The notes under the pieces: generated by a model
The model's database searches: none
Told to the model about the DNA's origin: nothing
What the model saw: the letters and a program-made list of their open reading frames with translations, nothing else
Translations under genes and position numbers: made by a program
Source of the DNA: Streptomyces sp. SW4
GTDB lineage: Bacteria > Actinomycetota > Actinomycetes > Streptomycetales > Streptomycetaceae
NCBI GenBank assembly: GCA_003248315.1
Contig: QKWM01000001.1
Coordinates: forward strand, 558,001 to 622,000
Direction of reading: 5' to 3'
Length of the DNA stretch: 64,000 nucleotides
In this document: positions 4,252 to 59,969 of the stretch, piece by piece
Numbering within the stretch: position 1 is the first letter of the stretch
Layout of the letters: every line of letters starts with the position of its first letter

Positions 4252-5467
4252 TCAGGCGTGCAGCGGCCGCGGCTCGGCGGCGTACGGCAGGTCCCGCCCG
4301 TGCTCCTGCGCCCTCCGGCCGCCGCCGATCTCGTCCAGCAGGGAGCCGCAGCGCGCACAGGTCTCCCGCGCGGTCTCCGTCAGCTCCCGCATCCGCGTGC
4401 GCAGATCGTCGCGGCGCTGCGGGTACTCGTCCCAGAGCCGGTCCACCTCCGCCAGCAGCAGCCCCGCCTGCTCCCGGGCGACACCCACCAGGGCCGGGGC
4501 GCCGAGCCGACGCGCGAAGTCGAAGACCTTCCCGGAGTACGGCAGCGGCAGCACCGGCACGCCCGTCAGCGCCGCGAAGATCACGAAGTGCAGCCGCATG
4601 CCGACGGCCAGCTCCAGATGGCGCATCAGCCCGAGGACCTGACCGGGGCTGTAGTCGCCGTGCAGGATCCGCCCCTTGTCCGGCGCGGTCATGTGGGACA
4701 GCACGGCGTGCGCGTGCCGGACGTCGTGCCGCTCCATCGGCAGGAACACCACGTGCGCGTCCAGGCGCCGCACCAGGAAGTCGGCGACGTCGGCGAGGAG
4801 CGCGTGGTAGTCGCCCTCGTCCAGCTTCTCGGCCGCCCGGCCCGGCTCCCGCACCGACATGCCCACCAGCCGGGCCTCCGTCGGCACGCCCTCGTCGCGC
4901 ATCATCGCCTCGGTGAACGGCTCCGGCCGCAGCAGCAGCGCCGGGTCGGCGGTCACCGTGACCTCGCGTTCCAGACCGACCTCCTCGAGGACCAGCTTGG
5001 ACTCCTCGTCGCGCACCGCCACGTCGTCCATGTCGGCCAGCACGGTGCGCACCGCCTCCCGGTCCTCCGCCTCCCGCAGCGGGCCGGCGCCGACCGCGTA
5101 GGCGAACGTCGGGACGTCCCGGTCCTGCGCGGCCCGCACGAGCCGCAGATAGCGCCGTGCCTCCCCGTCGTAGAGGATGCCGCCGCCGCCCAGCACCAGC
5201 AGGTCGAGGCCGGGCAGCACGTCCAGGACCCGGTTGCGGCTCACGCCCTCCCAGTCCACCACCTCGTCGGCCTCGGCGTGATGGGCGCGGGTGTGCTCGG
5301 CGTTGCGGCTGAACACGACCAGGTGGGCGTCCGGCCGGTGGACCCGCAGACAGGCCAGGACACAGGTCAGGATCGCCTCGTCGCCGATGTTGAAACCGCC
5401 GTACGAGCCGAGCACGCCGATGCGCGGGCCCGGCCGGGCGGGCCGCGGATGGAAGGGCAGTGGTCAT
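4252..5467 (-). CDS. Polysaccharide pyruvyl transferase family protein
   Basis: About 390 residues. The N-terminal LGSYGGFNIGDEAIL is the hallmark nucleotide/PEP-binding turn of CsaB/WcaK-type pyruvyl transferases. GGGGILYDGE (about 75) and VGMRLHFVIFAALTGVPVLPLPYSGK (about 270-300) are the other family blocks. The enzyme is expected to add ketal pyruvate to a cell-surface glycan. The start is uncertain: ATG 5467 has a GGGAG stretch upstream but needs a frame change. GTG 5415 begins directly at LGSYGG. A short direct-repeat spacer (4150-4240) separates it from the FAD oxidoreductase. Confidence 0.8.
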
Positions 5468-5688
5468 CCGGGAACTCCCGTCACGTTCACGGCCGGCAGG
5501 GCGCCGGGGGTCGGCGCGGAACGAGCGGCCCCGCGCTGGGTGCCGGGTTGCCTGCGGCGCCCGTCCGGAAACACCGGTTGCTCCCTTCGGGTGAGACGGC
5601 CGCGGCGGGCCGGGCCCGGCATCGGAACGCGGCGGGGAGGGTACGCGGGCGGCGCGGGGGACGCGCGGCACGAAGGAGGCGCGCCATC

Positions 5689-6342
5689 ATGCGGTACCAC
5701 GACCGCCGGCAGGCCGGACGGGCGCTGGCCGGGGAGCTGCGGGCGCTGCGGGAGGCCGGCGGTCTGCCGGACCCCGTGCTGGTCCTGGCCCTGCCCCGGG
5801 GCGGCGTCGCCGTGGCCCGGGAGGTCGCCGGCGCACTCGGCGCCCCGCTCGACGTGCTCGTCGTACGGAAGATCGGCGCGCCGTTCCAGGAGGAGTACGG
5901 CGTCGGCGCCATCGCCGGGACGACGAGCCGGTCTACGACGCGCGCGCCGTGGCCGGACTGGGGCTGGACGAGGCCGGCCTCGCGCCCGTCGTCGACCGCG
6001 AGCGGGCGGAGCTCAGGCGCCGGGAACGCCGCTACCGCCAGGCCGTCCCGCCCCGAGGTGCGCGGCCGGACCGTGGTGGTCGTCGACGACGGCCTGGCCA
6101 CCGGCTCCACGGCCCGGGCGGCCCTGCGCTCCCTGCGACGCCGGGAGCCCGGCCGTCTGGTCCTCGCCGTACCGGTGGGCGCGCCGGAGACGGTGGCCGC
6201 GATGCGGACGGAGGCGGACGAGGTGGTCTGCCCCCACACCCCCGACGCCTTCACGGCCGTCGGCCTCTGGTACGAGAACTTCGACCAGCTGACCGACGAG
6301 GACGTCCTGCGGGCCCTCCCGTCACCGAACACCCCGGACTGA
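5689..6342 (+). CDS. Phosphoribosyltransferase-domain protein
   Basis: About 217 residues. A strong ribosome site (GAAGGAGGC, 5672-5680) fixes the ATG at 5689. The PRPP-binding loop VVVVDDGLATGSTARAAL (about 125-143) and the N-terminal LALPRGGVAVAREVA block define a type I PRTase fold. This stand-alone family is annotated as phosphoribosyltransferase or putative hydrolase and its reaction is unknown. The segment between about 5930 and 6050 is read in another frame (…GLGLDEAGLAPVVDRERAEL…), so two frame changes flank it. The first is explained by one lost G in a GGG run. Confidence 0.8.
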   Translation: MRYHDRRQAGRALAGELRALREAGGLPDPVLVLALPRGGVAVAREVAGALGAPLDVLVVRKIGAPFQEEYGVGAIAGTTSRSTTRAPWPDWGWTRPASRPSSTASGRSSGAGNAATARPSRPEVRGRTVVVVDDGLATGSTARAALRSLRRREPGRLVLAVPVGAPETVAAMRTEADEVVCPHTPDAFTAVGLWYENFDQLTDEDVLRALPSPNTPD

Positions 6343-26478: not shown

Positions 26479-27737
26479 TCACCGTCCCTCGCGGGCATGG
26501 TCACCGCGGACAGCACGGCGGGTACGGCTCCGACGAGGAGCATGACGACGGGCCAGGCCGTGGCCGCGAGGATGCCGGGGATGATGAGCGGGGTGAGGAA
26601 GGCGCCGGCGAACACCATCGTGTTCTCCAGTCCCAGGGCCGTCCCGGAGCGTTCCTTGCCCGCCATGATGGCGATCTCGGCGTAGTGCACGCCGTGCCAG
26701 CCGCACGAGAGCAGGCCGGCCACCACCATCAGCGTCGCCGCGAGCCACGCGGGCCCGGACTGGCACAGCGCGAGTCCGACGAAGCAGGCGGCGATGATCC
26801 AGCTGTAGACGATGACGATGCTACGGCGGTGCCGGCCGCCCCGGCTGTCCGTCCAGCGGCCGCTCCACACCCGGGAGACCGCGCCCAGCGCCTGGACGGC
26901 GAAGAGCAGACCGGAGATGGTGGTGATGCCGATGCCGTGCACCGTGTGCAGATAGATCGCGGCGAACGACAGGACGGTGAACTGCGGGAAGTCCAGCAGG
27001 AAGGCGCTCAGGGAGATCCGCCAGATCTTCCAGCGGCGCAGCGGGCTGACGCTGGTGTTCCGGTGTCCCGCGGGGGGCAGCGGCGGCTCGTCCAGCCAGC
27101 AGACGATGGCGGCGGTGGCGGCGAGGGCGAAGACCGTCAGGAAGCCGAAGACGCCCCGGAAGCCGAAACCCATGGCGAGGGCGGGCAGCGCGAGCGCGCC
27201 GATGGCACCGCCGAGGGGACGGCCGCGACCCGGAGGCTGATGGCGAAGCCGTGGTTGCCGGGCGGGAACCAGCCCAGGACCGCCCGGCCCGAGGCGCTGT
27301 TGACGCAGCCGCCGAGCGCACCGGCGAGCAGCAGAACGGTGGACAGCAGCCAGGGCGGCGGGGTGTGCCCCCGGCCGGGACGAGGAACGCGGTGGCGACG
27401 GCGAGGCACACGGTCATGCCGGCCAGCCCGGTGATGAGCACGGCCCGCTCGCCGAACCGGTCGGTGAGCACTCCCCAGACGATCTCGGTGACGGCCGCAC
27501 CGCAGGTCAACGCGGCCAGAACCAGGCCGAGCTGACCGGTGGAGTACTGATAGTCCGACTGGAGGACCGCACTGGCCATGGGAATGCCCTGGAAGGCCGC
27601 GCTGAACGCCGCCTGCGCCATGATGCCGATGCCGAGGATCCCCACTTGTACCGGTGGGAGTGGGTCTTGCCCGACCTGCCGACGGGGAGCGGGGCCGCCG
27701 GCTGCGCTACGGGTGCCGTCGTGATCTGTTGGGACAT
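26479..27737 (-). CDS. MFS transporter, last gene of the mutase operon
   Basis: About 420 residues and twelve predicted helices. The loop 2-3 signature is EIVWGVLTDRFGERAVLITGLAG. Later blocks are GFGFRGVFGFLTVFAL, SAFLLDFPQFTVLSFAAIYLHTV and SGRWTDSRGGRHRRS. Frame changes occur near 27650, 27360, 27225 and at the end. One restored G near 26483 gives a stop at 26479; otherwise the frame would run 76 bases into the convergent MocR gene. Position after the cupin suggests export of the operon's product or uptake of its precursor. Confidence 0.82.
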
Positions 27738-27811: not shown

Positions 27812-28267
27812 TCAGGAGGTGGTGAGCGGTGCACCGTCCAGGGCAAGCCCGGTGTCCGGGAGTTCGCCGGGCAGCAGGGCCTCGGTGCGCTTCTCCCGGA
27901 TCACCAGCAGCGTGCAGCCGTCGAGGCTGCTGACCCGGTGCACGCTGCCGGGCTTCTCCAGGACGAGGCAGCCGGGGCCGTAGACGTCACCGTTGTCGTT
28001 GCGCAGTTCGCCGGCTATGACCACGATCAGTTCGTAGCCGAGGTGACGGTGGAGGTCTCCGTGTGCGCCGGCGCCGAACCGCGCGAGGTAGGCCTCGGCG
28101 CCGTCGGGGCCGGTGTCCTCGGCGGTGTAGAGCCAGTGCACGTCGACCGCCTGGCGTCCGGGCTGGACGTACGCCTGCCAGGTGAGCTGGTCGAGGTCGG
28201 TGCCGTTCAGGAGGTCGCGGACGACGAGGACGTCGCGGCGCCGGGGCGTGGAGGCGGTCACGGTCAT
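27812..28267 (-). CDS. Cupin-domain protein
   Basis: Intact, 151 residues. A single cupin barrel with metal ligands in HGDLHRHLGYELIVVIAGEL (His, His, Glu) and the late His in GSVHRVSS. It resembles ChrR-like and small dioxygenase cupins. The ATG overlaps the stop of the CoA-ligase gene (ATGA), so expression is coupled. Within the operon it could be an oxygenase or an isomerase; nothing in the sequence decides this. Confidence 0.82.
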   Translation of the reverse strand: MTVTASTPRRRDVLVVRDLLNGTDLDQLTWQAYVQPGRQAVDVHWLYTAEDTGPDGAEAYLARFGAGAHGDLHRHLGYELIVVIAGELRNDNGDVYGPGCLVLEKPGSVHRVSSLDGCTLLVIREKRTEALLPGELPDTGLALDGAPLTTS

Positions 28268-29962
28268 GGGCTGCCTTTCGGCTCGGTGCGGGGGAGGCCG
28301 GGTGCGGTGGCGCGCAGCCGCGCGGCGACTTCGGAGCGGCGGATCTTGCCCGACGTCGTGCGGGGCAGCGCGTCGGTGAAGGAGACGCTGTGGACGCGCA
28401 GGGCGCGGGTGACGTGGAGGTCGACGTGGTCGAGGAGTTCGGCCTCCGTGGCGCCGGTGCCCGGCTCGAGTTCGACCACGGCGTGCGCGGCGAGCGTCAG
28501 AGCGGCGTGCGCCACGGGCACCACGGCTGCGGCGCGGACGGCCGGGTGCGTACGCAGGATCGCTTCGAGCTCGTACGGGGAGACCCGGTGCCCGCCCGAC
28601 TTGAAGACGTCGTCGCTGCGCCCCAGGAGCCGTACGTAACCGTCGGAGGCGAGGACGGCGGAGTCGCCCGTCGCGTACCGGTCGGTGGTGAGGACCCCCG
28701 GGTGCGCTCCGGGTCGCCGTCGTAACCGGCCATCATGCCCACGGGCGCGTCGGCGAGTTCGACGTACAACTGCTCGTCGACGACGCTGAGTTGCCAGCCG
28801 GGCAGTGGCTTGCCGAGCCAGCCGGGCTTGTGGGGGAGTCCGGGCGTGGTGCCGACGAGGGCGGTCGTCTCCGTCTGGCCGTAGCCCTCGCGGACGGTCA
28901 CGCCCCATTCGGCTCCGATGATTTCGGTGACGTGCTGGGCCAGTGGTTCGCCGGCGGTGGTGGCCTCCCGCAGCCGGGGCTGGGCGGTCGAGGCCTGTGC
29001 GGCGAGGCGGGTCCACTGGGCGGGGGCGCGCACAGGCTGGTGATGTCCCGCTCGCGCAGCAGCCGTGGCAGGTGCCCGGAGTCGACGTGCTCGGTGGGCG
29101 GGACGACGAGGGTCGCCTCGGCGGTGAAGGGGACGAAGAAGCTGGACCAGGAGTGCTTGGCCCAGCCGGGCTCCGAGATGTTCACGTGCCGGTCGCCGGG
29201 GATCAGGCCGTTGAAGTACATCGACGACAGGTGTCCCACGGGGTACGAGGCGTGGGTGTGGACGACCAGCTTCGGCGCCGAGGTGGTGCCGGAGGTGAAG
29301 TAGGCGAAGGCCGTGTCCGAGGCGGGCGTCGGTCCGGTCGGCAGGTAGGAGGTGGAGACCTGGTAGGAGCCGTCGTACGGGTGCCAGCCGTCCACGTGCG
29401 CGCCGACCGCGATACGCGTCAGCGGGGTGTGCGGACCGGGGCCGCAGGAGGCGAAGAGGGGTGCGAGTTCGCTGCGGCAGATCACATGGCGGACCCGGCC
29501 GCGCCCGATCCGGTCGGAGGCTTCCGTACGGGTCAGGGAGGTGTACGTGGGGATGGCCACGGCTCCGGTCTTCAGGCAGGCCAGGAGCGTCTCCCACAGC
29601 TCGACCTGCGGACCGAGGACGATGAGCACACGGTCACCGCGCCGTACACCGACGTGGGTGAGCCAGTTGGCGAGCTGGTCGGAGCGGGTGGCGAGGTCCT
29701 GATAGGAGATGCGCTGGTCCCGGCCGTCCGGTCCGATCAGTTCCAGCGCGGTGCGCCGGTTGTCGTGGGCGATGACGTCGAACCACTCCAGGGCCCAGTT
29801 GAAGTGGGTCATCCGGGGCCAGGAGAAGGCCCGGCGGGCGGCCTCGTGGTCGGCGCGCAGGTCCAGGAGGAGGTCTCGGCCGCGCCGGAAGGCGGCGTGG
29901 GCGGGGGTACGGCGATGGATCCAGTGGTCAGAGGCGCGCGGGGCGGAGTGGGGCGTCGTCAT
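28264..29962 (-). CDS. AMP-forming acyl-CoA synthetase (benzoate-CoA-ligase-like)
   Basis: About 566 residues with two one-base corrections (near 29035 and 28705). ANL-superfamily motifs are AYFTSGTTSAPKLVVHTHASY (P-loop A3, about 205), REGYGQTETTALVG (A5), YATGDSAVLASDGYVRLLGRSDDVFKSGGHRVSP (A7-A8) and the catalytic Lys in LPRTTSGKIRRSE near the C-terminus. The GWAKHSWSSFFVPFTAEATLVV region is typical of the acetyl/benzoyl-CoA ligase branch. It activates a carboxylate as acyl-AMP then thioester, possibly for the PKS. The ATG overlaps the stop of the FAD gene. Confidence 0.87.
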
Positions 29963-31932
29963 GCTCGGGTTCCTTCCAGCGTCCGGTGGGCAGCCGGCCG
30001 GGGGAGCGCTGCGAGCGCGTCCCGCGCGATGGCGTCGGCGTCGCCGGTGAAGTCGGTCCAGGGTCCGGGCCGCGCGGACCCGACCTGCATGAACCAGCGC
30101 TGTCCCTCGGAGGGGATGCCCAGGACGTACACGCCCTCGGCGGCTGTGCCCGCCGCGGTCACGGGCCGGTAGGGGCTGGTCGTGGTGGCGACACCACCGG
30201 TGACCGGGACGCCGTCGCCCTGGCGGTTGGTCCACGGTGTCCACAGGCCGGTGGCGCGCAGCTGCCGGGTGAGCGGCGCGGTGTCGCGGTCGAGGTCCGG
30301 TGCGGGGATGCGGGCGTCGATGAGCGCCTCGCAGCGCTCCAGCGAGCCGTCCACCTGCGGGAACGGACGGTGAAGCACCGCCGTCCGCGTCGGCGGCGAA
30401 CTCGGCCGAGGGCCCGGCGACCCGCAGCACACCCGCGTCGAGCAGGGCCCGCGTCTCGCGCAGCCGCTGCGCGGGCGGTCCCGCCGCCAGGAAGGAGCTG
30501 AGCGGCGCGAACCAGCCCAGGAAGTCCGCGCGGTGCGACGCGGCGGTCAGGCCGTCGAAGTCGACCGCGCGCCTGATGCTGCCCCGTACGTCGCGCAGGA
30601 CGTCCAGGGCCGCCTTGCGGGGGCCGTGGAAGTTGCCCCGCGCGGAGTGTTCGAGGTCCTCGTCGATGAAGCGCCGCAGAGCGGTGTGGAACGCGGCGGG
30701 GCTGCGGAAGGTGCGGCCCGCGAAGGGACGTGCCAGGTCGTCGACGTCCAGGGGCGGCGCACCGTCGACGCCGAACTGTGCCGCCGTGGCGCGGACGATC
30801 TCGTCCGCCGCGTCGGCTGCCGCGCTCTCGACCAGGGCGGCGGCGCGCGCCAGGAATTCCTGTTCGGCGCGGTCGCCGAGCCGGGCGCGCACCTCGGTCG
30901 CGTAGTAGACGAGTTGCATCTCCGCGTGGAGCCAGGGCCAGACCTGCGTACGGAAGTCCAGCGGCCGGCCGGCGGCGCGCAGGGCGGCGACCCGCTGCGG
31001 GGTGAACAGCCGTGCCGGGTAACGCCACAGCGGACCCTTCTGGTTGACGCCGCGGGCCGGCAGTGGCACCCCGGACCGTGAGCCCGCCACCAGGACGGGT
31101 TCGAGGCCGCAGGGCACGTACCGCAGGGTCTTGTCCGGGCCCTCCCGGAACTCGCCGCCGCGGCCGGTGGTCAGGGCGGCGACGATGTCGTAGAACGTCA
31201 GCCCCATGCCGAGCACCGCCACGCGGGCCCCCGGCGCGATGCGCTCCAGGGGCATGTCGGCCGCGCTGTCACCGCGGATGTACTCGAGCCGCGCATCACG
31301 CGTGGCGAAGTCCGCGAAGCGGGCCTGGTCGGCGGAGAGTTCGGTCAGGGGATGGCCGGTGGCCAGGACGACCCGGTCCGCGTCGATCAGTCGGCCGTCG
31401 GCACAGCGCAACTGCCACACGGCGCCGGTACGCCGCATGGCGGTGACGTGTCCGGTGTGCCGGCGGAGCGTCGCACCGGCCGGCAGGGAGTCCTGCACCG
31501 CTCGGAGGAAGAACCGCAGATACGCGCCGTACAGCGCGCGCGGGGCGTAGGCGTTGGGGCCCGGGTAGCCGGGGTCCTCGGTGGCCGCCCACCACTGGGC
31601 CAGCGTCGGGCCCGCACCGGCCCGGGCGGGGCCGTCGTCGGCGGGCCGGAGAACATGGTCACCTCGCCGCAGGCGGTGTTCATCAGGAAGACGGGGTTCT
31701 GGTCGGTGCGCCAGACACGGCCCGCGCCGACCTCGTCCTTGTCGATCAGGACGATCTCCACGGCCCTGTCCGGTGTCTCGTCCCGCAGTCGGGCCACCAG
31801 CCGCTCCACGACGGCGAGACCGCGCGGGCCGGAGCCGACGACCGCGATCCGGTGCGGGGCGCCGACCTGAACACGGGTGCGGGCCGGCAGCGCCGCCGAC
31901 CGGTCGTGGGCGTCCGCGGTGTAGCGCAGCAT
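29959..31932 (-). CDS. FAD/NAD(P)-binding oxygenase-like module
   Basis: About 640 residues. The FAD loop is RIAVVGSGPRGLAVVERL. The following blocks VGAGRVWRTDQNPVFLMNTACGEVTMF, APRALYGAYLRFFLR and VVLATGHP are typical of the large FAD-NAD(P)-binding family (PF13454-like). From memory this includes flavin enzymes that N-oxygenate amino acids such as aspartate; this link is inference. Frame changes occur near 31640 and twice near 30380. No stop separates it from the mutase large subunit upstream, so it may be the C-terminal half of a fusion. An internal ATG at 31932 could also start it. It ends with an ATGA overlap onto the CoA ligase. Confidence 0.75.
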
Positions 31933-33225
31933 GCTCAGCAGCCGGCCGGAGGTGACGGCGTGGTGCGTGCCGCCGGGTGCGGGCAGGGGCATGGCACCGG
32001 TGTCCGCCCAGACGAGCCGCCCGTCGTCACCGATCGCACCCCGTGCCGCGCCGGCGTTGTCGCGGTGCAGGCAGAAGGGCACGTCGAGCGTGCCGGACGC
32101 GAAGGCGGCGCGCAGGCCCGAACCGATGTCGGAGCCGTGCTCCAGGACGGCGGTGATGAGCCGCAGCGCCTCGGTGTAGATCGTCTCGTAGTCGACCTGG
32201 CGGGCCCACGGCAGGGGCAGTCGTCCCGCAGTGCCTCGCGGGACACCCGGGCCGCCCGCTCCAGGGCCGCGACGTTCTCGGCGACGGTGGGAATGCGGTG
32301 CGCCTCGGCGACCGTCTTGACGATCAGCCGCTGGGCGCCGCCGCGTACGGCGAGCTGGGCCGAGGAGTCCAGGAGCAGTTCCGCCCCGGCCTCGGTGGCG
32401 GGGTAGACACCCATGTAGGTGTAGAGCACCACGTGCCGCGCGACCTGCGTCGGCAGGAAGAGCTCGGCGAGGTGGTGCAGGGCGGCCAGCGCCTCGATGT
32501 CCTGCACCGCGTTGGTCTGCTGGGCGTAGGACATCGAGACGGAGGTGATCCCGTTGCGGGCGAAGAACATCGCTTCCAGGACGCTGATCGCCACCAGCAG
32601 CGACGGCGGGCACATCTGGCCGAGCATGCAGCCGCCGAAGGTCTCCAGGTGGGCCCGCATACCGCGCTCGGCCGCCGCTTCGGCGAGCTGCTGGGTGGCG
32701 TCGGTCCAGGCGGGTACCGCCTCGGCGAGCGGGAGCCGGGAGTAGGGCAGGCAGTAGGAGACGGGACCGCCCTCGGAGGCGGACAGTTCCGCCGCGACCA
32801 TCGCCTCGAAGATGTGGCCGGGCCGGGCCGAGCCGTGCCGGACCTGGACGGGCACGCCGTCGGCGGCGCGGACGACCTCCGCGGTGAGTTGCGGCCCGTG
32901 GTTGACGAGCGGGAATCCGTTCAGCGCGCGGCCGGCCGCGAGGGCCGCCCGGGCGCCGGCGATGTCCTCGACCCGGGTGTAGGAGTCGATGGTGAGGGTG
33001 GCCAGCGTCCTGGCGCGGGCGGCCGCGACGGCCGCCAGACCGTCGGCCATGCTCCGCGGATCGGACATGCCCATACGGGCTGAACGACCAGCCGGCCGTC
33101 GTGCGCCGCCTGTTCCACGTAGGCCTGCATGTCGGGGGAGCGCCGGGGGCGTTCGGGGCCGCGCTGGGGAGGGGCGGAGTTGTCCTGAGGACGTTCGGGG
33201 TGCTCTGGGCACGTATGCCGCTCAT
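31933..33225 (-). CDS. Glutamate/methylaspartate mutase large (E) subunit
   Basis: About 430 residues. By comparison with clostridial GlmE the substrate-binding residues are all present: Arg in LVVQPRMGMS (after restoring one C at about 33075), Arg in TIDSYTR, Arg in VQVRHG, and the Glu and two Tyr of EGGPVSYCLPY. A TIM barrel is expected. It would convert L-glutamate to (2S,3S)-3-methylaspartate using adenosylcobalamin held by the small subunit. Further frame changes lie at about 33145 and 32225. The frame is open straight into the FAD module. ATG 33225 overlaps the stop of the small subunit. Confidence 0.85.
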
Positions 33226-33682
33226 GCGGCGACCCCCGCGATCCCGGGGCGGTGTCCCGTCATCCGCTGCAGCGCGGCGCCGAACTCGGCCGGGTCCGCG
33301 TCGTCCGTGAAGACCGCGTCGAAGCCCTCCGCGATCAGTTCGTCGGCCAGGTGGGGCTGGGCGGCGCCCTGGATGCCCAGCTTTCCGCCGATCATGACCG
33401 GGACCGAGGCCAGGGCCGGGTCGCTGTCCGCGCGCAGTGTCCTGATCAGCCGGCGGCCGTCGATGTGACCGTGTCCGTTCACGGAGGAGATGACGACGGC
33501 GTCGGGCCGCTGCAGCCGTACCTGCTCGACGAGTTCGGCGTCGGGCACGCACGGCCGAGGTTGATCACCTCGTAGCCGCGCTCTTCGAGCAGCAGATGGA
33601 GGAAGACCAGGTTCCAGGTGTGGGAGTCGGAGGAGACCGTCGAGAGCAGGACGCGTTTCGCTCTGGATCGGATGGGACGCAC
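33222..33682 (-). CDS. Glutamate/methylaspartate mutase small (S) subunit, B12-binding
   Basis: About 153 residues. GTG 33682 is chosen for its perfect AGGAGGT site 8 bases upstream. A longer ATG start at 33775 lacks one. The cobalamin Rossmann domain has KRVLLSTVSSDSHTWNLVFL, in which the usual DxHxxG lower-ligand motif reads DSHTWN. It continues VINLG, VVISSVNGHGHIDG and VMIGGKLGIQ, matching GlmS block for block. One G is lost near 33553. It is the first gene of the operon and sits right behind a perfect hairpin. Confidence 0.87.
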
Positions 33683-33697
33683 GAGGTAGACCTCCTG

Positions 33698-33729
33698 TCG
33701 ATGTGCCGCGGTCTGCCGCGGCACATCGA
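33698..33729 (-). promoter_or_regulatory. Perfect 14-bp inverted repeat abutting the mutS ribosome site
   Basis: Arms TCGATGTGCCGCGG (33698-33711) and its exact complement (33716-33729) enclose TCTG. The repeat ends one base from the AGGAGGT of the mutase small-subunit gene. It could be an operator, or an RNA hairpin that controls access to the ribosome site. Confidence 0.7.
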
Positions 33730-34076
33730 AGATCTCTGTTTCCGATGTCCCGGCCCAGACCGATTCGGGAGGCATGAACCGCGGTTCGCGGATGCCGTAC
33801 CGGCCCGGCCGTCCGGCCGGTCGGCGAACTAGGCTCGGTGCGCGCCCCGTCGGGGACGGCGGACCGTCCCGTCGGGGAGTGTCGTCCGCGGACGGTGACA
33901 CCGGTGATCACCAGCAGGGCGCCGAGGCACTGCGGGAACGTCAGCGCCTGGCAGCCGGAGGTCCCGGCCCGGCGGTCCCCGTGGGGCTCTCGGAGGCCCG
34001 GTTCCGCGGGCTCGGGGCCCCCGGGGCGACCGCCCGGTGCCGTACCACCGCCCGCCGGCCCGGTCCGGTCGCGGGC
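33730..34076 (-). promoter_or_regulatory. Upstream region of the mutase operon
   Basis: About 350 bases between the mutase small-subunit leader and the convergent-side end of the LysR gene. It should hold the operon promoter. I looked for cobalamin-riboswitch elements on the minus strand and found no convincing B12 box. Short GC-rich inverted repeats occur (for example CCGGCCGTCCGGCCGG near 33806). No supported gene. Confidence 0.4.
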
Positions 34077-34086: not shown

Positions 34087-35011
34087 GTACCGCTCGTGAC
34101 GTACGAGGAACGCGGCCGGGCGGGCGCGAGGTCCCGCGGCCGGGTGGGGTGAAGGGGCTGGGGCGGGCGCAGCCGTCGCAGGTGCGGGACCACGTGGGCG
34201 GGAGTGACCTCGGGGTTCCAGACCAGTTCGGTCAGCACCGGGGACAGTGCGGGCAGCGGCAACTCGGCCAACTGCCCCGACCGGAGCTGCGGTCCGACCG
34301 CGACGGCCGGCATCGCTCCCACGCCCAGGCCGCCCAGCACGGAGGACTTGACCCCGTCCACGCTGCCCACCTGCTGGACCTGGACGCGTCCGAGGAGGGC
34401 AGCGCCTGCTGCTCGGCGATGTCGCGGTAGACACAGCCCGGCGCGGTGACCAGCAGCCGCTGCGGGCGGGCCACCTGCTCGGGCGTGCCGACCAGGACGA
34501 CCTGGTCGGTCCACAGGTGCCGACGGTTCTCCTCGCCGGCCGGTCGGTGTCCCGGCGGTACGGTCGCCGAGTTGACCAGCGCGGCGGACAGTTCGCCCCG
34601 GCCGACCTGGTCGCGCAGCTCGGCCACCGAGCCGACGAAGACCTGGGTCTCCAGTTGCGGCATGAGCCGGCGCAGGGTGCGCAGGAAGCCCGGCAGACGG
34701 TAGGTGCACAACGAGGCCGTCGCGCCGATGCTCAGGCTGCTCGGGCGGTCCTGCGCGGCAGCCGCCACCGCCGCCTGCGCCTGCGCCAGCCTGTCCAGGA
34801 TGTCGGTGGCGTATTCGAGGAACCGGGTGCCCGCCTTGGTGAGGCGGTTCATCGACGCTCCTCGCTCCAGCAGCTGGGCCCCCAGGCTGCGTTCGAGCGC
34901 CTGTACGTGACTGGTGACGGTCGAACGGGCATAGCCGAGCCGGTCCGCGGCCTCAGCCAGTGTGGTGCTCCGGGCCACGGCCACGAACGTTTCCAGCCTC
35001 TGGACGTCCAC
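34077..35011 (-). CDS. LysR-family regulator of the biosynthetic locus
   Basis: About 311 residues, one base lost near 34400. GTG 35011 with AGGAGA 9 bases upstream. The HTH is MDVQRLETFVAVARSTTLAEAADRLGYARSTVTSHVQALERSLGAQLL. The effector domain continues SLSIGATASLCTYRLPGFLRTLRRLMPQLETQVFVG. It lies between the two divergent biosynthetic transcripts and is itself divergent from the PKS gene, so it is the likely pathway-specific switch. Confidence 0.87.
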
Positions 35012-35295
35012 GTTGCGGTCTCCTTCCGGTCGGTCCCCCGAGGGGCGTTTCGCCGACCCCTCCGCCTCGAAACGAGGATCTTGAGCCAAGGTTAGATCAG
35101 ACGCCATACATGTACTCAAGTTCATGGATGCGCGGTCAACGGGGCATGGGTAAAGGTTTCTTTAACCTGCAGGCCAAGTTTGTTCCCGAGTGTATGTTTG
35201 CATCGGATTGCAGGGTGTGGGTCTACGCCAGCCGCTGCGCAGAAACGGGGGAGACGGGCTGGTCTCCTCCGTGCCCGACAAGAAGGGGGACAGCC
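35012..35295. promoter_or_regulatory. Divergent lysR/PKS promoter region
   Basis: 284 bases, clearly AT-richer than the surroundings. It contains TACATGTA (about 35107), AGGTT-N5-AACCT (35154-35168) and several T-N11-A spacings usable by LysR. A GAAGGGGG stretch before 35296 is the PKS ribosome site. Confidence 0.5.
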
Positions 35296-38200
35296 ATGCG
35301 CGCTTCGCGTGCCACCGAACGGACCGCAGTGGCCGTGGTGGGAATCGGATGCGCATTTCCGGGTGCGAGCAACCCGGGGGAGTTCTGGGAACGGCTCCTG
35401 TCCGGCACCGACAGCGTCTCCGTCGTACCGGGGGACCGGTTCGACATCGCCGAGCACTACTCCTGCGACCCGCGGGAACCGGGCAAGACCGTCTCCCGGC
35501 ACGGCGGATTCCTCACCGACGCCTACGCCTTCGACGCCGGCTTCTTCGGCATCTCACCGGCGGAGGCGGCGGAGATGGACCCCCAGCAGCGCCTCCTGCT
35601 CCAGGTCGCCTGGGAGTCGCTCGAGGACGCGGGCCTGAGACCCTCGAGCCTGGCCGGCTCGCGCACCGGTGTCTTCGTGGGCCAGGCCACGGCCGACTAC
35701 GACGAGGTCCACCGGCCCCTCGACGGGCAGACCACCGTACGAGGCGCCGCGGGCCGCAGGCTGCGGGCCGTCACCGCCGGCCGCGTCTCCTACGCCATGG
35801 ATCTCCGCGGCCCGAGCATCGTCCTGGACACCGCCTGCTCGTCCTCCCTCGTCGCCGTCCACGCCGCCCGGCAGAGCCTGCTCACCGGCGAGAGCGACCT
35901 GGCCCTCGCGGGCGGTGTCAATCTCATCCTGTCGCCGCAGGACGCCATCGTGTACTCGCAGAGCGGCATGCTCTCGGCGGACGGACGGTGCAAGTTCGCC
36001 GACGCCTCGGGAGACGGCTTCGTCCGCGGCGAGGGGGTCGGCATGGTGGTGCTCAAGCGGCTCCCCGACGCGCTGCGGGACGGCGACCCGGTGCGCGCAC
36101 TCCTGCTGGGCACCGCGGTCTGCAACGACGGCAGAGGCAGCGGACTGCTGCTGAAGCCGCCGAATCGGGTCAGGTCGCCGCGATCGAGGAGGCCTGCGCG
36201 GCGGCGGGCATCTCGCCGGGCAGGTCGACTACGTGGAGGCGCACGGCACGGGAACGCCGGTCGGTGACGGTGTCGAGTTGACCGCGCTCGCCTCGGTCAA
36301 CCGCGATGTCCGGGACGGTCGGCCGTTGCGGATCGGGTCGGTGAAGACGAACATCGGCCATCCGGAGGCCGCGGCCGGCATCGCCGGTCTGATCAAAGCG
36401 GTACTGATAGCCGAGCACGGTGTCATCCCCGCGTCCCTGCACTGCACCGAACCCCACCCGCTGCTCGCCGCGGAAACCCTTCCCCTCCGGTTGGTCACCG
36501 AGAACGAGCCGCTGGCCAAGCAGGGCGACCGTGCCTACATCGGCGTCAGCTCCCTCGGCCTGTCCGGCACCAACGCCCACGCGATCGTGGGCGAGTTCAC
36601 CGACCGGGCCGGCACGTGCGCGCCATCGCGCACCGAGGCGGGGCCCCGTCCGGAGCGACGGCCACTGCTCGTGCTGTCCGCCCGTACCTCCGCGTCCCTG
36701 CGCGGCCTGGCCCGCGCCTACGCCGCCCACCTGCGCGGCCCGGGGCGCGGCACGTCCCTGGCCGACCTGTGCGCGGCCGCCGCCCTGCGCCGGGACCACC
36801 ACCCCTTCCGCCTGTGGGTGACGGCTGCGACACATGACGACATGGCGGAGCGGTTGCTGGCCCTGGCACACGGCGACGACATCACCGACGGCGGCACCGG
36901 GGAAGCGGGCTTCGACGCCGACCGGCGCACCGCTCTGGTCTTTCCCGGCCAGGGCTCGCAGTGGCTGGGGATGGGCCGCGGCCTCATGGCCGCGTCACCC
37001 GCCTTCCGTACGACGCTGTCGCGGTGCGCGGACGCCGTGCAGACGGAACTGGGCTGGTCGCCCCTGGAGTTGCTGACGGACGACCGCGCCGAACTCCCCG
37101 ACGAGGTACAGACGGTGCAGCCCTTGCTCTGGGCCGTGCAGGTGGCCCTCGCCGCCGCGCTGCGGGAGGCAGGGCTGCGGCCCGACCTGTGCATCGGCCA
37201 CAGCATGGGAGAAGCGGCGGCGGCCCAGGTCAGCGGCGCCCTCACCCTGCGCGACGCGGCAGCGGTGATCTGCCGCCGCAGCCGGCTCATGAGCCGGGCC
37301 GCCGGACGCGGGGGCATGCTGCTGGTCGGCCTGGCCGCGGACGAGGCCCGGCAGGTCATCACCGGCGCACACCCCGGCATCACCGTGGCGGCTGAGAACG
37401 CGCCGCGAGCGACCGTCCTGGCCGGGCCCGGGGACGAACTGGACCGACTGACCCGCACACTGGAACGACAGGGTGTCATCTGCCACCCGGTCCGCGTCGA
37501 CGTCCCCTCCCACTCCCCGGTCATGGAGGAAATCCGCCAGGACCTGCTCGACTCGCTCGCCGACCTCACCCCCCGACGGCCCGAATCGGCCATGATCTCC
37601 ACCGTGGGCGGACACGACCTGGTCGGCGCCGGACTCGACGCCGCGTACTGGGCGGAGAACCTGTGCGGTCCCGTGCACTTCACGCGCGCCGTCAAGGCGG
37701 CGGCGAAGGCGGCCGACACCGTCTTCGTCGAAGTCAGCCCGCACCCGCTGCTGTCCGGCGGCATCAGGGAAACCCTCTCCGCCGCCGGGGCGAGCGGCGC
37801 CGTCGTGGCGACCCTGCGCCGCGGCCAGGACGAGCCGGACGCGCTGGCCCGGACCGTCGGGCAGGTCTACGCCGCCGGCGCGGCGGTGGACTGGACCCGC
37901 TGGTTCGACCGGGACACGACCCCCGGCGTACGACTGCCCACCTACACCTGGGACACCCGCGACTACCTCCCCGCCGTCCCGACCCCGCAACGCCAGGCAC
38001 CGGACGTCCACACGCGCACGGTCCCACTCGCCGACTGGGCTGCCGCCGACGACTGGCACGACGCCCTGACCGTGCGGGGGAGCGCCCCGGTTCCGGCCGT
38101 CGTCCATCTCCTGGCCGCGATCGACGCGGCACGGGACCTCCGCGGGCACACGGCTCCGGTCCTGCGTGACGTCCGTCTGTCCCCGCATGTGCTGGACGCA

Positions 38201-39309
38201 CGCGACGCCGCCGCCACCGCGCTCACGGTGGAGATCGGCGCGCCCGGCCGCACCGGGAGCCGCCCGGTGACCGTCACCTCCGCCCGCGCCGGCGAGACCG
38301 TCCCGCACGCCGAGGGCCAGATCGCGGCGGCCGACCACCGCGAGGACGCCGACCCGGCCGACGGCGGGCCCTGCTGGACGCGGCGCTGTCCCGGTGCACC
38401 ACGTATCTGCCGCGCCACCGCTTCGAGGCGCTGGCCCACCGGCACGGCATCACGATCGGGCCCGGCCTGGCATCGCTGGAACAACTCTGGTGCCACAAGG
38501 GCGAGTTCGTAGCGCGGGTGCGACGCCCCGCCCTGCCGGGCCCGGCGGCCTGGGAAGCGGGGCTGCTGCCGCTGCTCTCCGCATGGCCCGGAGTGTCCGG
38601 CTCCGCGTCCGCGCGCCGGATCGGTCCGGGGGACACCCGGGCCGGCGACGAAAGCCTCTACGCCCCTGAGGAGTTCGGCGAGGTCAGGGTGCTCGACGAG
38701 TTGTCCGAGAGCTTCTGGAGCGTGGGCACCTGTGCGCCCACCGGCCCGGATTCCGCCCTCGCCGATGTCCGTCTGTACGCGCCGGACGGGCGTGTACTGG
38801 CCTCCTTCACCGGCATCCGGCTGCGGCGGCTGCCCGGGGAACCGGTCCCGGCGCCCGCCGCTCTCTCCGTCGGGGCAGTGGTGGGCCGGCTCACCGAACG
38901 GCTGCTGCCGCCCGTCGTCTCCGGGGCGTTGCAGGGGATCGGCTCCGCGCTCGTGGACGCCGTGACGGCGAAGGGTGACGCCCCGGCACGGAACGGGGAA
39001 CGAACCGCGACGACGCTCGCCTCCCTGCCTGTCGCCGAGCCGCCGCAGCCAAGGGGCACGGACCGCCCCCGGAGCCGGATCGCGCCAAGTCCCCGGCAGG
39101 CACTGGTCGATCGCGCCGCCGATCTGCTCGGCATGCCCCCGTCCCAGGTGGACGTCCGCCGGCCGCTGTCCGCTCTGGGGCTGGACTCCCTGATGGCCGT
39201 GCAACTGCGGCAGCGGCTGCTCGCCGACCACGGCATCGATGTCCCTGTGGGGCGCCTCCTGGCGCAGGTGCCGGTCGCGGACCTCCTGGCCGACCTCGCC
39301 GCGGCGTAG
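35296..39309 (+). CDS. Single-module type I PKS: KS-AT-DH(degenerate)-ACP
   Basis: About 1,338 residues after three one-base corrections (about 36168, 36222 and 38370). KS (about 10-430): DTACSSSLVAVH (Cys about 179), VEAHGTGTPVGD and KTNIGHPEAAAG. AT (about 540-850): GHSMGEAAAA (Ser about 635) and VDVPSHSPVM, which matches neither the malonyl HAFH nor the methylmalonyl YASH code. DH-like hot-dog region (about 900-1190): the usual HxxxGxxxxP and the second-half Asp are missing (PAVVHLLAAID, IGPGLASLEQLW). ACP: LGLDSLMAVQ (Ser about 1298). No KR, ER, MT or thioesterase. It may act iteratively or make one extension. Confidence 0.9.
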
Positions 39310-46577: not shown

Positions 46578-46756
46578 CGCTTCTGCCTCCTTCTTGAGGT
46601 CCCAGGCCGCCGTACACGCTCGTCCTGGGGCCGCGAGGTGCCGCGGCTCGGACAGAAGGGTCACGCACCAGGCTGTTTCGCTTCTCTTACAGATCACGCC
46701 CTCGACGCCCGGTGCTGTAACAGCGGTGAAAGGCCGGGGCGAGGTAGACAGGGGGC

Positions 46757-47443
46757 ATGCGTGTACTGGTGGTGGAGGACGAGGCGTTCCTGGCCGAGAT
46801 GATCGCCCGAGGGCTCGGCCGCGATGCGATCGCGGCCGATGTCGCCCTCGACGGGGTGAGCGCGCTGCGCAAGCTGCAGCTCGGCGACTACGACGTCCTC
46901 ATCCTCGACCGGGACCTGCCCGGCGTGCACGGCGACGAGGTCTGCCGCCGTGTGGTCGCCCAGGGCCTGCGCACCCGGATTCTGATGCTCACGGCGTCGG
47001 TCACGGTCCCCGAACGCGTCGAAGGACTGGGACTGGGCGCGGACGACTACCTGACCAAGCCCTTCGCCTACGACGAGCTTCTGGCTCGCGTCCTCGCCCT
47101 CGGCCGCCGCTCCCAGCCGGCACTGCCGCCGGTTCTCCGGCGGGCCGGCATCACCCTCGACGTCCCCCGCCGGCAGGCGAGCCGCGACGGGCACGCACTG
47201 AGCCTCAGCCGCAGGGAGTTCGCCGTTCTGGAAGCCCTCATGCGTGCCGGTGGCGCCGTCCTCAGCAGCGAGGACCTCATCGAGCAGGTCTGGGACGAGG
47301 AGGCCGGATACGACACCAACCCCGTCCGCGTCACTCTCAGTCGCCTGCGGACCAAGCTCGGCGCCCCTCCTGTGATCGAAACAGTTCCCGGTGCCGGCTA
47401 CCGCATCACCGGGGAACCCGGGAACACCCAGGCGGACCGATGA
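46757..47443 (+). CDS. OmpR-family response regulator
   Basis: Intact, 228 residues. Receiver: VVEDEAFLAEMIARGL, phospho-Asp in VLILDRDLPG, LTAS and TKPFAYDELLARV. The DNA-binding winged helix ends RVTLSRLRTKLGAPPVIETVPGAGYRI. It is divergent from the exporter operon over about 180 bases that include GCTGTAACAGC, so it probably controls that operon. Confidence 0.93.
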   Translation: MRVLVVEDEAFLAEMIARGLGRDAIAADVALDGVSALRKLQLGDYDVLILDRDLPGVHGDEVCRRVVAQGLRTRILMLTASVTVPERVEGLGLGADDYLTKPFAYDELLARVLALGRRSQPALPPVLRRAGITLDVPRRQASRDGHALSLSRREFAVLEALMRAGGAVLSSEDLIEQVWDEEAGYDTNPVRVTLSRLRTKLGAPPVIETVPGAGYRITGEPGNTQADR

Positions 47444-48609
47444 CTTTCCGGCTTCTTCCGCTGACGGAGCGGGGCCGCCTCACCGCCCTGTACGGAGGTC
47501 TGCTGCTGCTGGCGGGCCTGATCGTCGTGGGCGTCATCTACCTGTTGGTCCGGTCCGGCCTCGACCAACGCATCAGCGAGGCGGCCACCGCCGGTCACTC
47601 GCAGGGGGTCCGGCTGCCACGGCCCTCCGAGACGCAGCCCAGTCTTCCGCCTGTCATTCCGTCCGAAGAAGCGGGCGAGTTCGCCGAGACCAAAACGGTG
47701 CAGGCCATCACGGACGCCACGCTTGGCCGGCTGCTGACCGTCTCCGCCGTCACCTTCGCCGTCTTCGCCATCGGGTCCGTGGGCCTCGCCTGGTGGATGG
47801 CCGGCCGGGTTCTGCGCCCGCTCGGCCGGATCACGGCGACGGCCCGCAGACTCTCCGGCGAGAACCTCCACCAGCGCATCGCCCTCGCCGGTCCCCCCGG
47901 AGAGCTGAAAGAGCTCGCCGACACCTTCGACGCGATGCTGGAACGGCTCGAACAGCTCGTCACCGCCCAACAGCGGTTCGCAGCCAATGCCGCCCACGAA
48001 CTGCGGACTCCTCTCGCCGTCCAGCGTGCGGCCGCCGAGATCGGACTCGCCGACCCGGACCCCGCCGACATCCCGTGGATCCGGCAACGCCTCATCGAGG
48101 CCGCCCACCACAGCGAGCAGCTCATCGACTCGCTGCTGTTGCTCGCCACCACCGATCGGGGACTCGATCGCAGCGAGCCCGTACACCTGGAGCAGACCAC
48201 GGCGATCATCGTGGCGGACCTCGGCGAGGAAGCCCGTCACCGCGGCATCACCGTCACGCCCGCCATCGAGCCCACTGTCGTGCACGGCGACGCCACCCTC
48301 CTGGCCCACCTCGTCCGGAACCTGCTGAGCAACGCCCTGCGTTACAACCACCACGGCGGCAACGTCGACGTCCGCCTCGCCGACCGGACACTGACCGTCA
48401 CCAACACCGGCCCGCTCGTCCCGCCCGACACCGCCCCTCTCCTCTTCGAGCCCTTCCGGCGCATCGGCGAACGCACCCACAGCGCTGCCGAGGGCACAGG
48501 ACTCGGTCTCTCCATCGTCGCTTCCATCGCCCGTGCCCACCACGCCCGCGCCACCGCCCGGGCCAATCCCACCGGTGGTCTCACCGTCACCGTCCGCTTC
48601 CCCGACTGA
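47440..48609 (+). CDS. Sensor histidine kinase
   Basis: Intact, 389 residues. TM1 is LTALYGGLLLLAGLIVVGVIYLLV and TM2 LLTVSAVTFAVFAIGSVGLAWWMAG, with a sensor loop of about 75 residues between. HAMP follows (RVLRPLGRITATARRLSGENL). H-box AANAAHELRTPLAVQ, N-box NLLSNALRYNHHGG, G-box GTGLGLSI. It is coupled to the response regulator by ATGA overlap. Confidence 0.93.
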   Translation: MTFRLLPLTERGRLTALYGGLLLLAGLIVVGVIYLLVRSGLDQRISEAATAGHSQGVRLPRPSETQPSLPPVIPSEEAGEFAETKTVQAITDATLGRLLTVSAVTFAVFAIGSVGLAWWMAGRVLRPLGRITATARRLSGENLHQRIALAGPPGELKELADTFDAMLERLEQLVTAQQRFAANAAHELRTPLAVQRAAAEIGLADPDPADIPWIRQRLIEAAHHSEQLIDSLLLLATTDRGLDRSEPVHLEQTTAIIVADLGEEARHRGITVTPAIEPTVVHGDATLLAHLVRNLLSNALRYNHHGGNVDVRLADRTLTVTNTGPLVPPDTAPLLFEPFRRIGERTHSAAEGTGLGLSIVASIARAHHARATARANPTGGLTVTVRFPD

Positions 48610-59051: not shown

Positions 59052-59969
59052 ATGAGCGCCCAGCAGTTCACCGGCATTCTCGCCGCCGTCGTCACCCCCT
59101 TCACCGCGGACGGCTCCGCCGTCGACGCCGACGGCGTCCGGCGCCAGGCCGAGCACATCATCGGCGGCGGCGTCCACGGCCTCGTCCCCGGCGGCAGCAC
59201 CGGCGAGTTCACCGCCCTGAGCATCGACGAGCGCAAGCAGACCACCGAGCTGTACGTGGAAGCAGCCGCCGGCCGCGTCCCGGTGATCGCCGGCACGGGC
59301 GCGCTGAGCACGGCCGAGACCATGGAGCTGAGCGTGCACGCCGAGAAGGCCGGCGCGGACGCGGTCATGATCGTGCCGCCGTTCTACGACGCCCCGTCCT
59401 TCGAGGAACTCCTCGCCTTCTACGGCGACGTCTCCGAAGCCATCGACATCCCGATCATGTACTACAACATCCCCGCCGCCACCGGAGTCCACCTCACCCC
59501 CGAGCAGCTCGCGGAGCTGGGCCGCAGGACCGGCGTGACCTCGTACAAGGACACCGGCGGCGACTTCGCCTGGTTCTCCGCCGTCAAGGAGCAGTACGCC
59601 GAGGACATCACGGCCCTCAACGGCTGGGACACGCTCACCTTCGCCGCCCTCGCGAGCGGCGCGCAGGCCGGCGTCTGGGGCACCGCGAGCGTGATCCCGC
59701 GCCTGTGCGCCGACCTGTACGAGGCGGTCGCCGTCCGCGGCGACCTGGCGGCCGGGCGTGAGCTGTGGGCGAAGATCTTCCCGATCTGCCGGTTCCTGGA
59801 GTCCCACAACTACGCCTGCGGCATCAAGACCGGTGTCGAGCTCGTCGGCGTGAGCGCAGGCCCGACCCGCCGCCCCGTCCTGCCGCTGGCGCCCGAGCAC
59901 CGCGAGGAGCTGCGGACCCTGCTCGCCGCCGCGGGCGTCGAGACCGTGGCCGGCACGGTGGCCGTGTGA
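59052..59969 (+). CDS. DapA-family lyase, pyrroline-4-hydroxy-2-carboxylate deaminase-like
   Basis: Intact, 305 residues. The DHDPS/NAL fold shows LVPGGSTGEFTALS, MYYNIPAATG (Tyr) and the Schiff-base Lys in GVTSYKDTGGDF (about 163). In hydroxyproline pathways this family deaminates the pyrroline to 2-oxoglutarate semialdehyde. Its stop overlaps the next start (TGATG). Confidence 0.87.
   Translation: MSAQQFTGILAAVVTPFTADGSAVDADGVRRQAEHIIGGGVHGLVPGGSTGEFTALSIDERKQTTELYVEAAAGRVPVIAGTGALSTAETMELSVHAEKAGADAVMIVPPFYDAPSFEELLAFYGDVSEAIDIPIMYYNIPAATGVHLTPEQLAELGRRTGVTSYKDTGGDFAWFSAVKEQYAEDITALNGWDTLTFAALASGAQAGVWGTASVIPRLCADLYEAVAVRGDLAAGRELWAKIFPICRFLESHNYACGIKTGVELVGVSAGPTRRPVLPLAPEHREELRTLLAAAGVETVAGTVAV

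Follow-up and report, generated by a model that had tools for sequence, protein, structure and literature searches.

A glutamate mutase fused to an aspartate N-hydroxylase-type flavoenzyme in Streptomyces, and its predicted role in N-oxidation of 3-methylaspartate

Can a mutase that rearranges the carbon skeleton of glutamate be encoded in one frame with a flavoenzyme, and what would the joint protein make? This question is raised by a 64,000-nucleotide stretch of DNA from Streptomyces sp. SW4 (assembly GCA_003248315.1, contig QKWM01000001.1, positions 558,001 to 622,000; the whole stretch is called the window), in which an initial annotation had reported a glutamate mutase large subunit fused to a flavin adenine dinucleotide (FAD)/NAD(P)-binding enzyme. 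We confirmed that the fusion is genuine. Our preferred reading, to which we give a probability of about 0.72, is that of a bifunctional enzyme that would convert glutamate to 3-methylaspartate together with the separate subunit GlmS and would then oxidise the nitrogen of this product repeatedly, with a ligase and a cupin acting afterwards. The gene and its parts were delimited as follows.

29959-33225, minus strand: fused gene for a mutase E subunit and an N-hydroxylase-type flavoenzyme, about 1090 residues, with at least five small frameshifts in the assembly
31903-33225, minus strand: predicted glutamate (methylaspartate) mutase E domain, from PF06368 and the fold match of a homologue; end estimated from the translation
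31852-31902, minus strand: short linker in frame with both sides, from the translation across the junction; limits estimated
29962-31851, minus strand: predicted flavin N-hydroxylase domain (PF13454), L-aspartate N-hydroxylase-like, from domain and homology searches

The fused gene begins with an ATG at 33225 and ends with a TGA stop at 29959-29961. Its ATG overlaps the stop of GlmS as ATGA, and its own stop overlaps the ATG at 29962 of the ligase gene next downstream in the same way. A single open reading frame (ORF; 31387-33552, minus strand) holds the C-terminal block of the mutase and the start of the flavoenzyme together, and contains DDGRLVWADTGAMPLP and RIAVVGSGPRGL. For comparison of frames we used the intact L056 gene of Streptomyces longwoodensis (3273 bp, 1090 residues). 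Relative to this gene, the window gene (3267 bp) showed at least five frame steps, namely four single-base losses and one step in which either two bases were lost or one was gained. Six base losses had been counted initially, and this count holds if all steps are read as losses, but the last step could also be a gain of one base. The agreement in length lends modest support, since close relatives span 3210-3327 bp (3210, 3234 and 3327 bp in three others).

No frameshift was found across the junction (32217-31645), which is a single frame of 191 codons with 91% amino-acid identity to L056. The ratio of nonsynonymous to synonymous substitution rates (dN/dS) was 0.215 for the junction and 0.23 over 1034 codons of the fused gene; purifying selection on the amino acids thus extends across the junction. 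The claimed fusion is therefore correct. The initial annotation had also suspected a hidden gene boundary at a TGA near 31935, close to an ATG at 31932. This TGA closes the frame used upstream of a frameshift near 32215 (ORF 31935-33212) and lies outside the continuing frame, so that the suspicion was not borne out. Genes for the B12 subunit, ligase, transporter and regulator in the window are frameshifted as well, and the source assembly (4 contigs) is 83.4% complete; the breaks therefore look like insertions and deletions of the assembly.

We searched 392 genomes of the genus, including the source genome, with the middle of the flavoenzyme as query. A relative was present in 326, and 30 loci were kept (L003-L032). 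The mutase lay directly upstream of the flavoenzyme in 17 of the 29 kept loci from other genomes, and both halves formed a single uninterrupted frame in all 17 regions of up to 20 kb retrieved (L033-L049), encoding proteins of 1061-1124 residues that align end to end. The fusion is thus present in at least 17 of the 391 other genomes. A wider genome scan was made with the alignment of these 17 proteins, and the best 80 of 538 candidates (L053-L132) were analysed; this selection favours fused loci, because the query was itself fused. Both halves were found in 50 of the 80 loci, as a fusion in 36 and as adjacent separate genes in 14. The two sets share most of their genomes and should not be counted as independent; the 14 split loci are from the second set only. 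Gene positions, lengths and gaps were obtained with a custom gene caller, and gene families are single-link BLAST clusters. Four fused loci run off the end of a contig (L057, L059, L079, L082), and in L083, from Frankia, the flavoenzyme is interrupted past the junction. Fused loci occur in Streptomyces, Kitasatospora, Saccharothrix, Solihabitans, Geodermatophilus, Microbispora, Frankia, an actinomycete metagenome bin and Pseudomonas frederiksbergensis. The spacing of the called genes in the split loci lies between an overlap of 4 bases and a gap of 740 bases, and such closely spaced genes are an obvious source for a fusion; one pair, on a plasmid of Streptomyces xanthii, is labelled 'methylaspartate mutase' and 'FAD/NAD(P)-binding protein' by NCBI. 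When the intact homologue P0002 was used in a phylum-wide search, no further fused gene was detected in 395 other Actinomycetota genomes at E values up to 1e-100, indicating that the fusion is patchy and rare at this scale. The initial annotation had proposed looking for fused or separate ORFs in homologues, and both arrangements were found, the fused one predominating.

Could the fusion be spurious? The halves might normally be separate and have been merged in the window by sequencing errors, and both the richness of this assembly in frameshifts and the relatives with two genes speak for this. The junction itself is however clean and closely matches that of an intact relative, and the single frame recurs in 36 of 50 loci and 17 of 17 regions; we consider merging by error barely conceivable. 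Alternatively, at least five frameshifts could mark a decaying pseudogene. This is very improbable in light of the dN/dS value against L056, the intact residues on the flavin side (see below), the frameshifts in neighbouring genes and the low completeness of the genome.

The mutase half can be assigned to the glutamate mutase family by Pfam and by fold, and conversion of glutamate to 3-methylaspartate is its predicted activity. PF06368 matched two pieces of the window with E values of 3e-70 (237 bits) and 3.4e-13 (49 bits), above the cut-off of 26.6. Structure prediction was performed on the intact L053 homologue (mean predicted local distance difference test score 81.7; predicted template modelling score, pTM, 0.58), and residues 435-443 of the model, corresponding to the linker, are a stretch of low confidence. 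The mutase half of this model has a triosephosphate isomerase (TIM)-barrel fold and superposed on clostridial glutamate mutase (1cb7) with a Z score of 40.7 over 409 residues (root-mean-square deviation 3.0); the fold also matched 6h9e. Residues aligned with Arg66, Arg100, Arg149, Glu171, Tyr177 and Tyr181, which we take to be the substrate-binding and catalytic positions of glutamate mutase, are identical in the L033 homologue and invariant in 17 aligned fused rows. Intact homologues scored 178-180 bits against TIGR01503 and did not reach the NCBI equivalog cut-off of 390 bits; one split and one mutase-only actinomycete enzyme also scored low, at 180 and 153 bits. An S subunit with the D.H motif was present in all 36 fused and all 14 split loci. 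Its B12 motif reads DxHTWN, as in most mutase-only loci, the canonical motif presumably being DxHxxG. No cobalamin riboswitch was detected in the window, where no Rfam match was obtained at gathering thresholds. With the glutamate mutase of Clostridium cochlearium (1cb7, 6h9e) the system shares the TIM-barrel fold, the substrate arginines and a separate B12 subunit with DxH. It differs in the C-terminal N-hydroxylase of the E subunit, in a sequence match that begins at residue 55 of the clostridial chain, and in the DxHTWN form of the B12 motif.

Sequence and predicted fold both relate the flavin half to the L-aspartate N-hydroxylases FzmM and CreE. It matched 8cp2, an enzyme of this type, with an E value of 1.7e-101 and 38% identity. 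The corresponding part of the L053 model superposed on 8cp2 with a Z score of 40.1 over 581 residues; the next flavoenzymes in the fold list had Z scores of about 18 or less, and families missing from that list prove nothing. An FAD/NAD(P)-binding partner had thus been correctly recognised at the outset, and its kind can be sharpened to the aspartate N-hydroxylase type, which oxygenates an amino nitrogen. As described in PMC10404684, aspartate N-hydroxylase oxidises aspartate in three consecutive NADPH-dependent rounds to give nitrosuccinate, which then loses CO2 to form 3-nitropropionate; the paper also names the residues of the substrate chamber, and states that N413E abolishes aspartate hydroxylation and that V571F increases the Michaelis constant. 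We compared these positions (8cp2 numbering) with the window enzyme. Trp51, Asn62 and Arg13, 266, 276, 409, 412, 416, 577 and 593 are kept, and Asn413, Val571 and Arg597 are replaced by Gly, Phe and Ala, respectively. The fold (in the homologue) and the FAD/NADP core including Trp51 and Asn62 (in the window) are therefore retained, and the chamber through which aspartate enters (Arg13, Arg276, Asn413, Arg416, Arg577) is incomplete in the window, with four arginines kept and Gly at 413. Residue 413 was Gly in 13, Gln in 13, Ala in 3, Asp in 2 and another residue in 1 of 32 fused relatives, a count that leaves out L079 and both pieces of L083 as too short. The altered chamber fits an altered substrate, whose identity it leaves unproven.

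On our preferred reading, the N-terminal half and GlmS would convert L-glutamate to 3-methylaspartate, and the C-terminal half, with FAD, NADPH and oxygen, would oxidise the amino group of 3-methylaspartate repeatedly. The end point would most likely be 3-methyl-nitrosuccinate, or the oxidation may halt at the oxime. If 3-methyl-nitrosuccinate behaves like nitrosuccinate, its loss of CO2 should yield 2-methyl-3-nitropropanoate; the adjacent acyl-CoA-ligase-like enzyme (CoA, coenzyme A) could activate this small branched acid. The cupin would act next, in a decarboxylation or in release of nitrite. The equilibrium of glutamate mutase favours glutamate, and coupling to an irreversible oxidation within one polypeptide would therefore pull the mutase reaction forward. 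The initial annotation had suggested that a linked oxidoreductase would channel 3-methylaspartate to oxidation; this accords with the preferred reading, and such a transfer may take place between the halves. The calculations show the fusion, its conservation and constraint, the family and fold of each half, the cassette described below and the lack of a nearby lyase. We infer 3-methylaspartate as the substrate, and likewise the number of oxidations, the later products and the roles of the ligase and cupin.

In a tree of the flavoenzymes (67 rows), 8cp2 and L150-L152 were on one side and the 63 others on the opposite side, with support of 100/100. The window enzyme thus did not fall with the characterised aspartate enzyme, just one characterised sequence being included. 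The 63 rows comprise 33 fused (the window among them), 17 split and 13 stand-alone enzymes. One group (100/99) consists of 16 split rows plus one contig-end row, and a second (100/99) of 32 fused and 11 stand-alone rows. Within the latter, ten stand-alone rows make up a clade (100/98) placed among the fused rows with moderate support (branches 93/90 and 96/72). The window row, of which the first 82 residues are out of frame, grouped with L056 at 100/96, and the Pseudomonas fusion had a long branch and an unsure place. L143 was scored as stand-alone in the tree on a contig of 3812 bases, which is too short for a firm assignment, and it is outside the twelve stand-alone genomes considered below. 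In a tree of the mutases, split and fused sequences lay in different parts, with weak deep support (83/77), and the linkage of mutase and flavoenzyme may have had one or two origins. The near-identical L144, L146 and L147 were removed from both trees, and L080 was too short for the mutase tree, in which two fusions bear other labels, namely 'mutase-only' for L106 and 'other' for L059, which lies at a contig edge. The mutases of L102, L103 and L105 group with the fused ones, and no N-hydroxylase is present in the stretches fetched for them.

We then asked what accompanies the relatives that lack the fusion. A PF06368 search of the twelve stand-alone genomes of the window side detected a mutase gene in five, and within about 11 kb of the flavoenzyme in three (G013, G081, G226); one of three genomes with a canonical enzyme also has a PF06368 gene. 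In L149 (7004-11958), an N-hydroxylase of the window side is paired with an adenosine monophosphate (AMP) ligase and a pyridoxal phosphate-dependent enzyme, and the PF06368 search of its genome gave no match. Window-side enzymes seem to have different amino-acid-producing enzymes as partners, and with the mutase in that role the amino acid would be 3-methylaspartate. The stand-alone enzymes of L052 and L133, which group among the fused ones, may perhaps N-oxidise a chain-extended acidic amino acid.

Nitrite is removed in the aspartate pathway by CreD, which belongs to the aspartase/fumarase superfamily (PMC13411527). In all three genomes with a canonical aspartate enzyme, a gene with the Lyase_1 domain (PF00206) was found no more than about 1.2 kb from the matched stretch. 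No Lyase_1 gene was found near the fused gene in the source genome, or within 20 kb in ten fused, two split and twelve stand-alone genomes, some of whose contigs end at less than 20 kb. The nearest one in any fused genome examined was at 25 kb (G155). Since no lyase is nearby, what the fusion makes is probably converted by another route than the product of the aspartate pathway.

Several observations weigh against the preferred reading. Both the E and the S subunits of the mutase score below the NCBI equivalog cut-offs, and, with a pTM of 0.58, the relative placement of the two halves in the model is uncertain. The substrate is not fixed by sequence, since pocket residue Arg276 is kept in just 21 of 32 fused relatives, and Asn413, replaced in fused enzymes, is retained in 14 of 20 split rows (which include the three near-duplicates L144, L146 and L147). 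Nine of the twelve stand-alone relatives have no mutase gene near the flavoenzyme, and other amino-acid genes adjoin stand-alone relatives, namely homocitrate-synthase-like, aconitase and aminotransferase genes in L052, and a homocitrate-synthase-like gene and an aminotransferase in L133; members of the clade can therefore use other substrates. At least one fused genome, G219, carries a separate flavoenzyme with an adjacent Lyase_1 gene on another contig (G219:C165), so that a lyase could act from another locus. Finally, the HPP gene described below is absent from the source genome and from the stretches of the nearest kin (L053-L059).

With these points in mind, two other functions have to be considered. 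One is that aspartate or some other amino acid is the substrate of the N-hydroxylase half, with the mutase taking part in another step of the cluster, and the mutase-less relatives inside the clade, as well as the mostly intact arginine cluster that holds aspartate, would be consistent with this. It is rather unlikely, as the halves are fused or adjacent in all 50 loci that have both and GlmS is always present, as the window enzyme lacks the Asn413 and Val571 of the aspartate enzyme, and as the lyase of the aspartate pathway is not nearby. The other is that the flavin half is a dehydrogenase or oxidase deaminating 3-methylaspartate to a keto acid. NCBI names the relatives simply 'FAD/NAD(P)-binding protein', and disulfide and thioredoxin reductases and enzymes of the flavin-containing monooxygenase type share the middling Z scores of other N-hydroxylases; aspartate N-hydroxylase is nevertheless far the best match in both sequence and fold (Z 40 versus about 18 or less), and the flavin-side residues and most of the arginine cluster are kept, which makes deamination improbable. 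An artefactual fusion, a pseudogene and a generic dehydrogenase were rejected on the grounds of the clean junction and homologues, the dN/dS of 0.23 and the Z score of 40 with 8cp2, respectively.

The genes around the fusion in the window are the following.

33222-33727, minus strand: GlmS, the B12-binding S subunit with motif DSHTWN; one frameshift, ATGA overlap with the fused gene, 5' end approximate
28264-29962, minus strand: AMP-forming acyl-CoA-ligase-like enzyme (PF00501 and PF13193), frameshifted
27812-28267, minus strand: ChrR-type cupin (PF12973), from the domain search
26481-27737, minus strand: major facilitator superfamily (MFS) transporter, frameshifted; in the same position in L053, L054, L056 and the Pseudomonas locus L080
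34083-35011, minus strand: LysR-type regulator, from a match to an L056 gene and the BLAST family of an L066 gene with HTH_1 and LysR_substrate

Among the 50 loci holding both halves, GlmS was present in 50 and the ligase in 46, the four others ending at contig edges. AMP-binding and AMP-binding_C domains were found in the ligase, and the consensus of the 46 ligases retains YFTSGTT..PK and SGK, which we take to be the core and C-terminal lysine motifs of AMP-forming ligases; formation of a CoA thioester would be its predicted activity. The closest solved relatives of the L053 ligase by sequence are 4-hydroxybutyrate-CoA ligase (8biq), 3etc and ACSM2A; this kinship, with 4-hydroxybutyrate-CoA ligase and medium-chain acyl-CoA synthetases, fits activation of a small acid. 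The cupin is a gene of its own in 38 of the 50 loci, and in another five the ligase is long (685-763 residues). This long form was shown to include the cupin in L080 and in L033 (the contig of L053), and the same is deduced for L054, L055 and L056 from length and family. In close relatives the ligase frame continues into the cupin as one protein, and the window frames are broken at that point. Both metal-site patterns, as we assumed them for scoring, are carried by 37 of 39 cupins.

GlmS, the fusion, the ligase and the cupin, joined by the MFS transporter in loci of the window type and in Pseudomonas, may form a self-contained, transferable pathway that converts glutamate to nitrite or to a branched C4 nitro compound, either 2-methyl-3-nitropropanoate or the CoA ester of this acid, with ligase and cupin in place of CreD. 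We regard this as a tentative proposal, at somewhat less than even odds. A PF04982 (HPP) gene lies in the fetched stretch of 27 of the 50 loci with both halves, compared to none of 30 mutase-only loci, and a vanadium-haloperoxidase-like protein in 25 of 50 compared to none of 30; the cupin family is also at 0 of 30, zero meaning no member of that BLAST cluster among called genes. The HPP family includes nitrite transporters (PMC8774688), which hints at nitrite as a product or by-product in those 27 loci. In L066 (4813-21368) and other HPP loci, HPP, vanadium-haloperoxidase-like, rhodanese and CMD-family proteins recur, and a system of nitrite and haloperoxidase is conceivable.

Each half is thus of a known kind, and we could not find their linkage or the cassette described in the open-access literature. 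No paper linking glutamate mutase with nitrosuccinate was found there, subscription journals being mostly outside the search, and for the names of the proposed products a single paper was found, on synthetic chemistry going by its title and abstract. With FzmM and CreE (8cp2, 8cp5; PMC10404684), the flavin half shares the whole-domain fold, FAD/NADP-side residues, most of the arginine cluster and about 38% identity; it differs in lying outside the canonical group, in three changed residues, in its fusion to a mutase and in having no CreD-type lyase nearby. The aspartate-nitrosuccinate (ANS) nitrous-acid pathway of CreE and CreD (PMC13411527) likewise N-oxidises an amino dicarboxylic acid with an enzyme of the same wider family, but the cassette would start from glutamate via the mutase and has ligase and cupin in place of Lyase_1. 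Actinomycete glutamate mutases of macrolactam clusters (PMC5785472, PMC10662134) appear to have in common with our system a glutamate mutase and 3-methylaspartate in a biosynthetic cluster. If the preferred reading is true, a B12 radical rearrangement of a carbon skeleton is physically coupled to oxygenation of an amino group, and the nitrosuccinate chemistry from which diazo, hydrazine and nitro natural products arise gains a branch derived from glutamate. As the cassette is found in many Streptomyces, some other actinomycetes and one Pseudomonas, it offers a handle for genome mining, and the enzyme can be tested in vitro.

Some further features of the surroundings were recorded. A polyketide synthase with ketosynthase, acyltransferase, dehydratase and acyl carrier protein domains (KS-AT-DH-ACP; 34960-39309, opposite strand) adjoins the cassette in the window, and one of the same family does so in L054, L056 and L059 (KS-AT-DH-ACP in L056). 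L056 has an EamA transporter between LysR and GlmS, of which only the last 43 of 300 residues are matched in the window, at 33795-33950 with 57.7% identity, perhaps as the remnant of a deleted gene. In L053, an MFS transporter fused to a hemerythrin domain (4266-6155) lies about 3.4 kb upstream of GlmS. Elsewhere in the window, 46594-48609 encodes a sensor histidine kinase and 59765-61060 a member of the proline racemase family.

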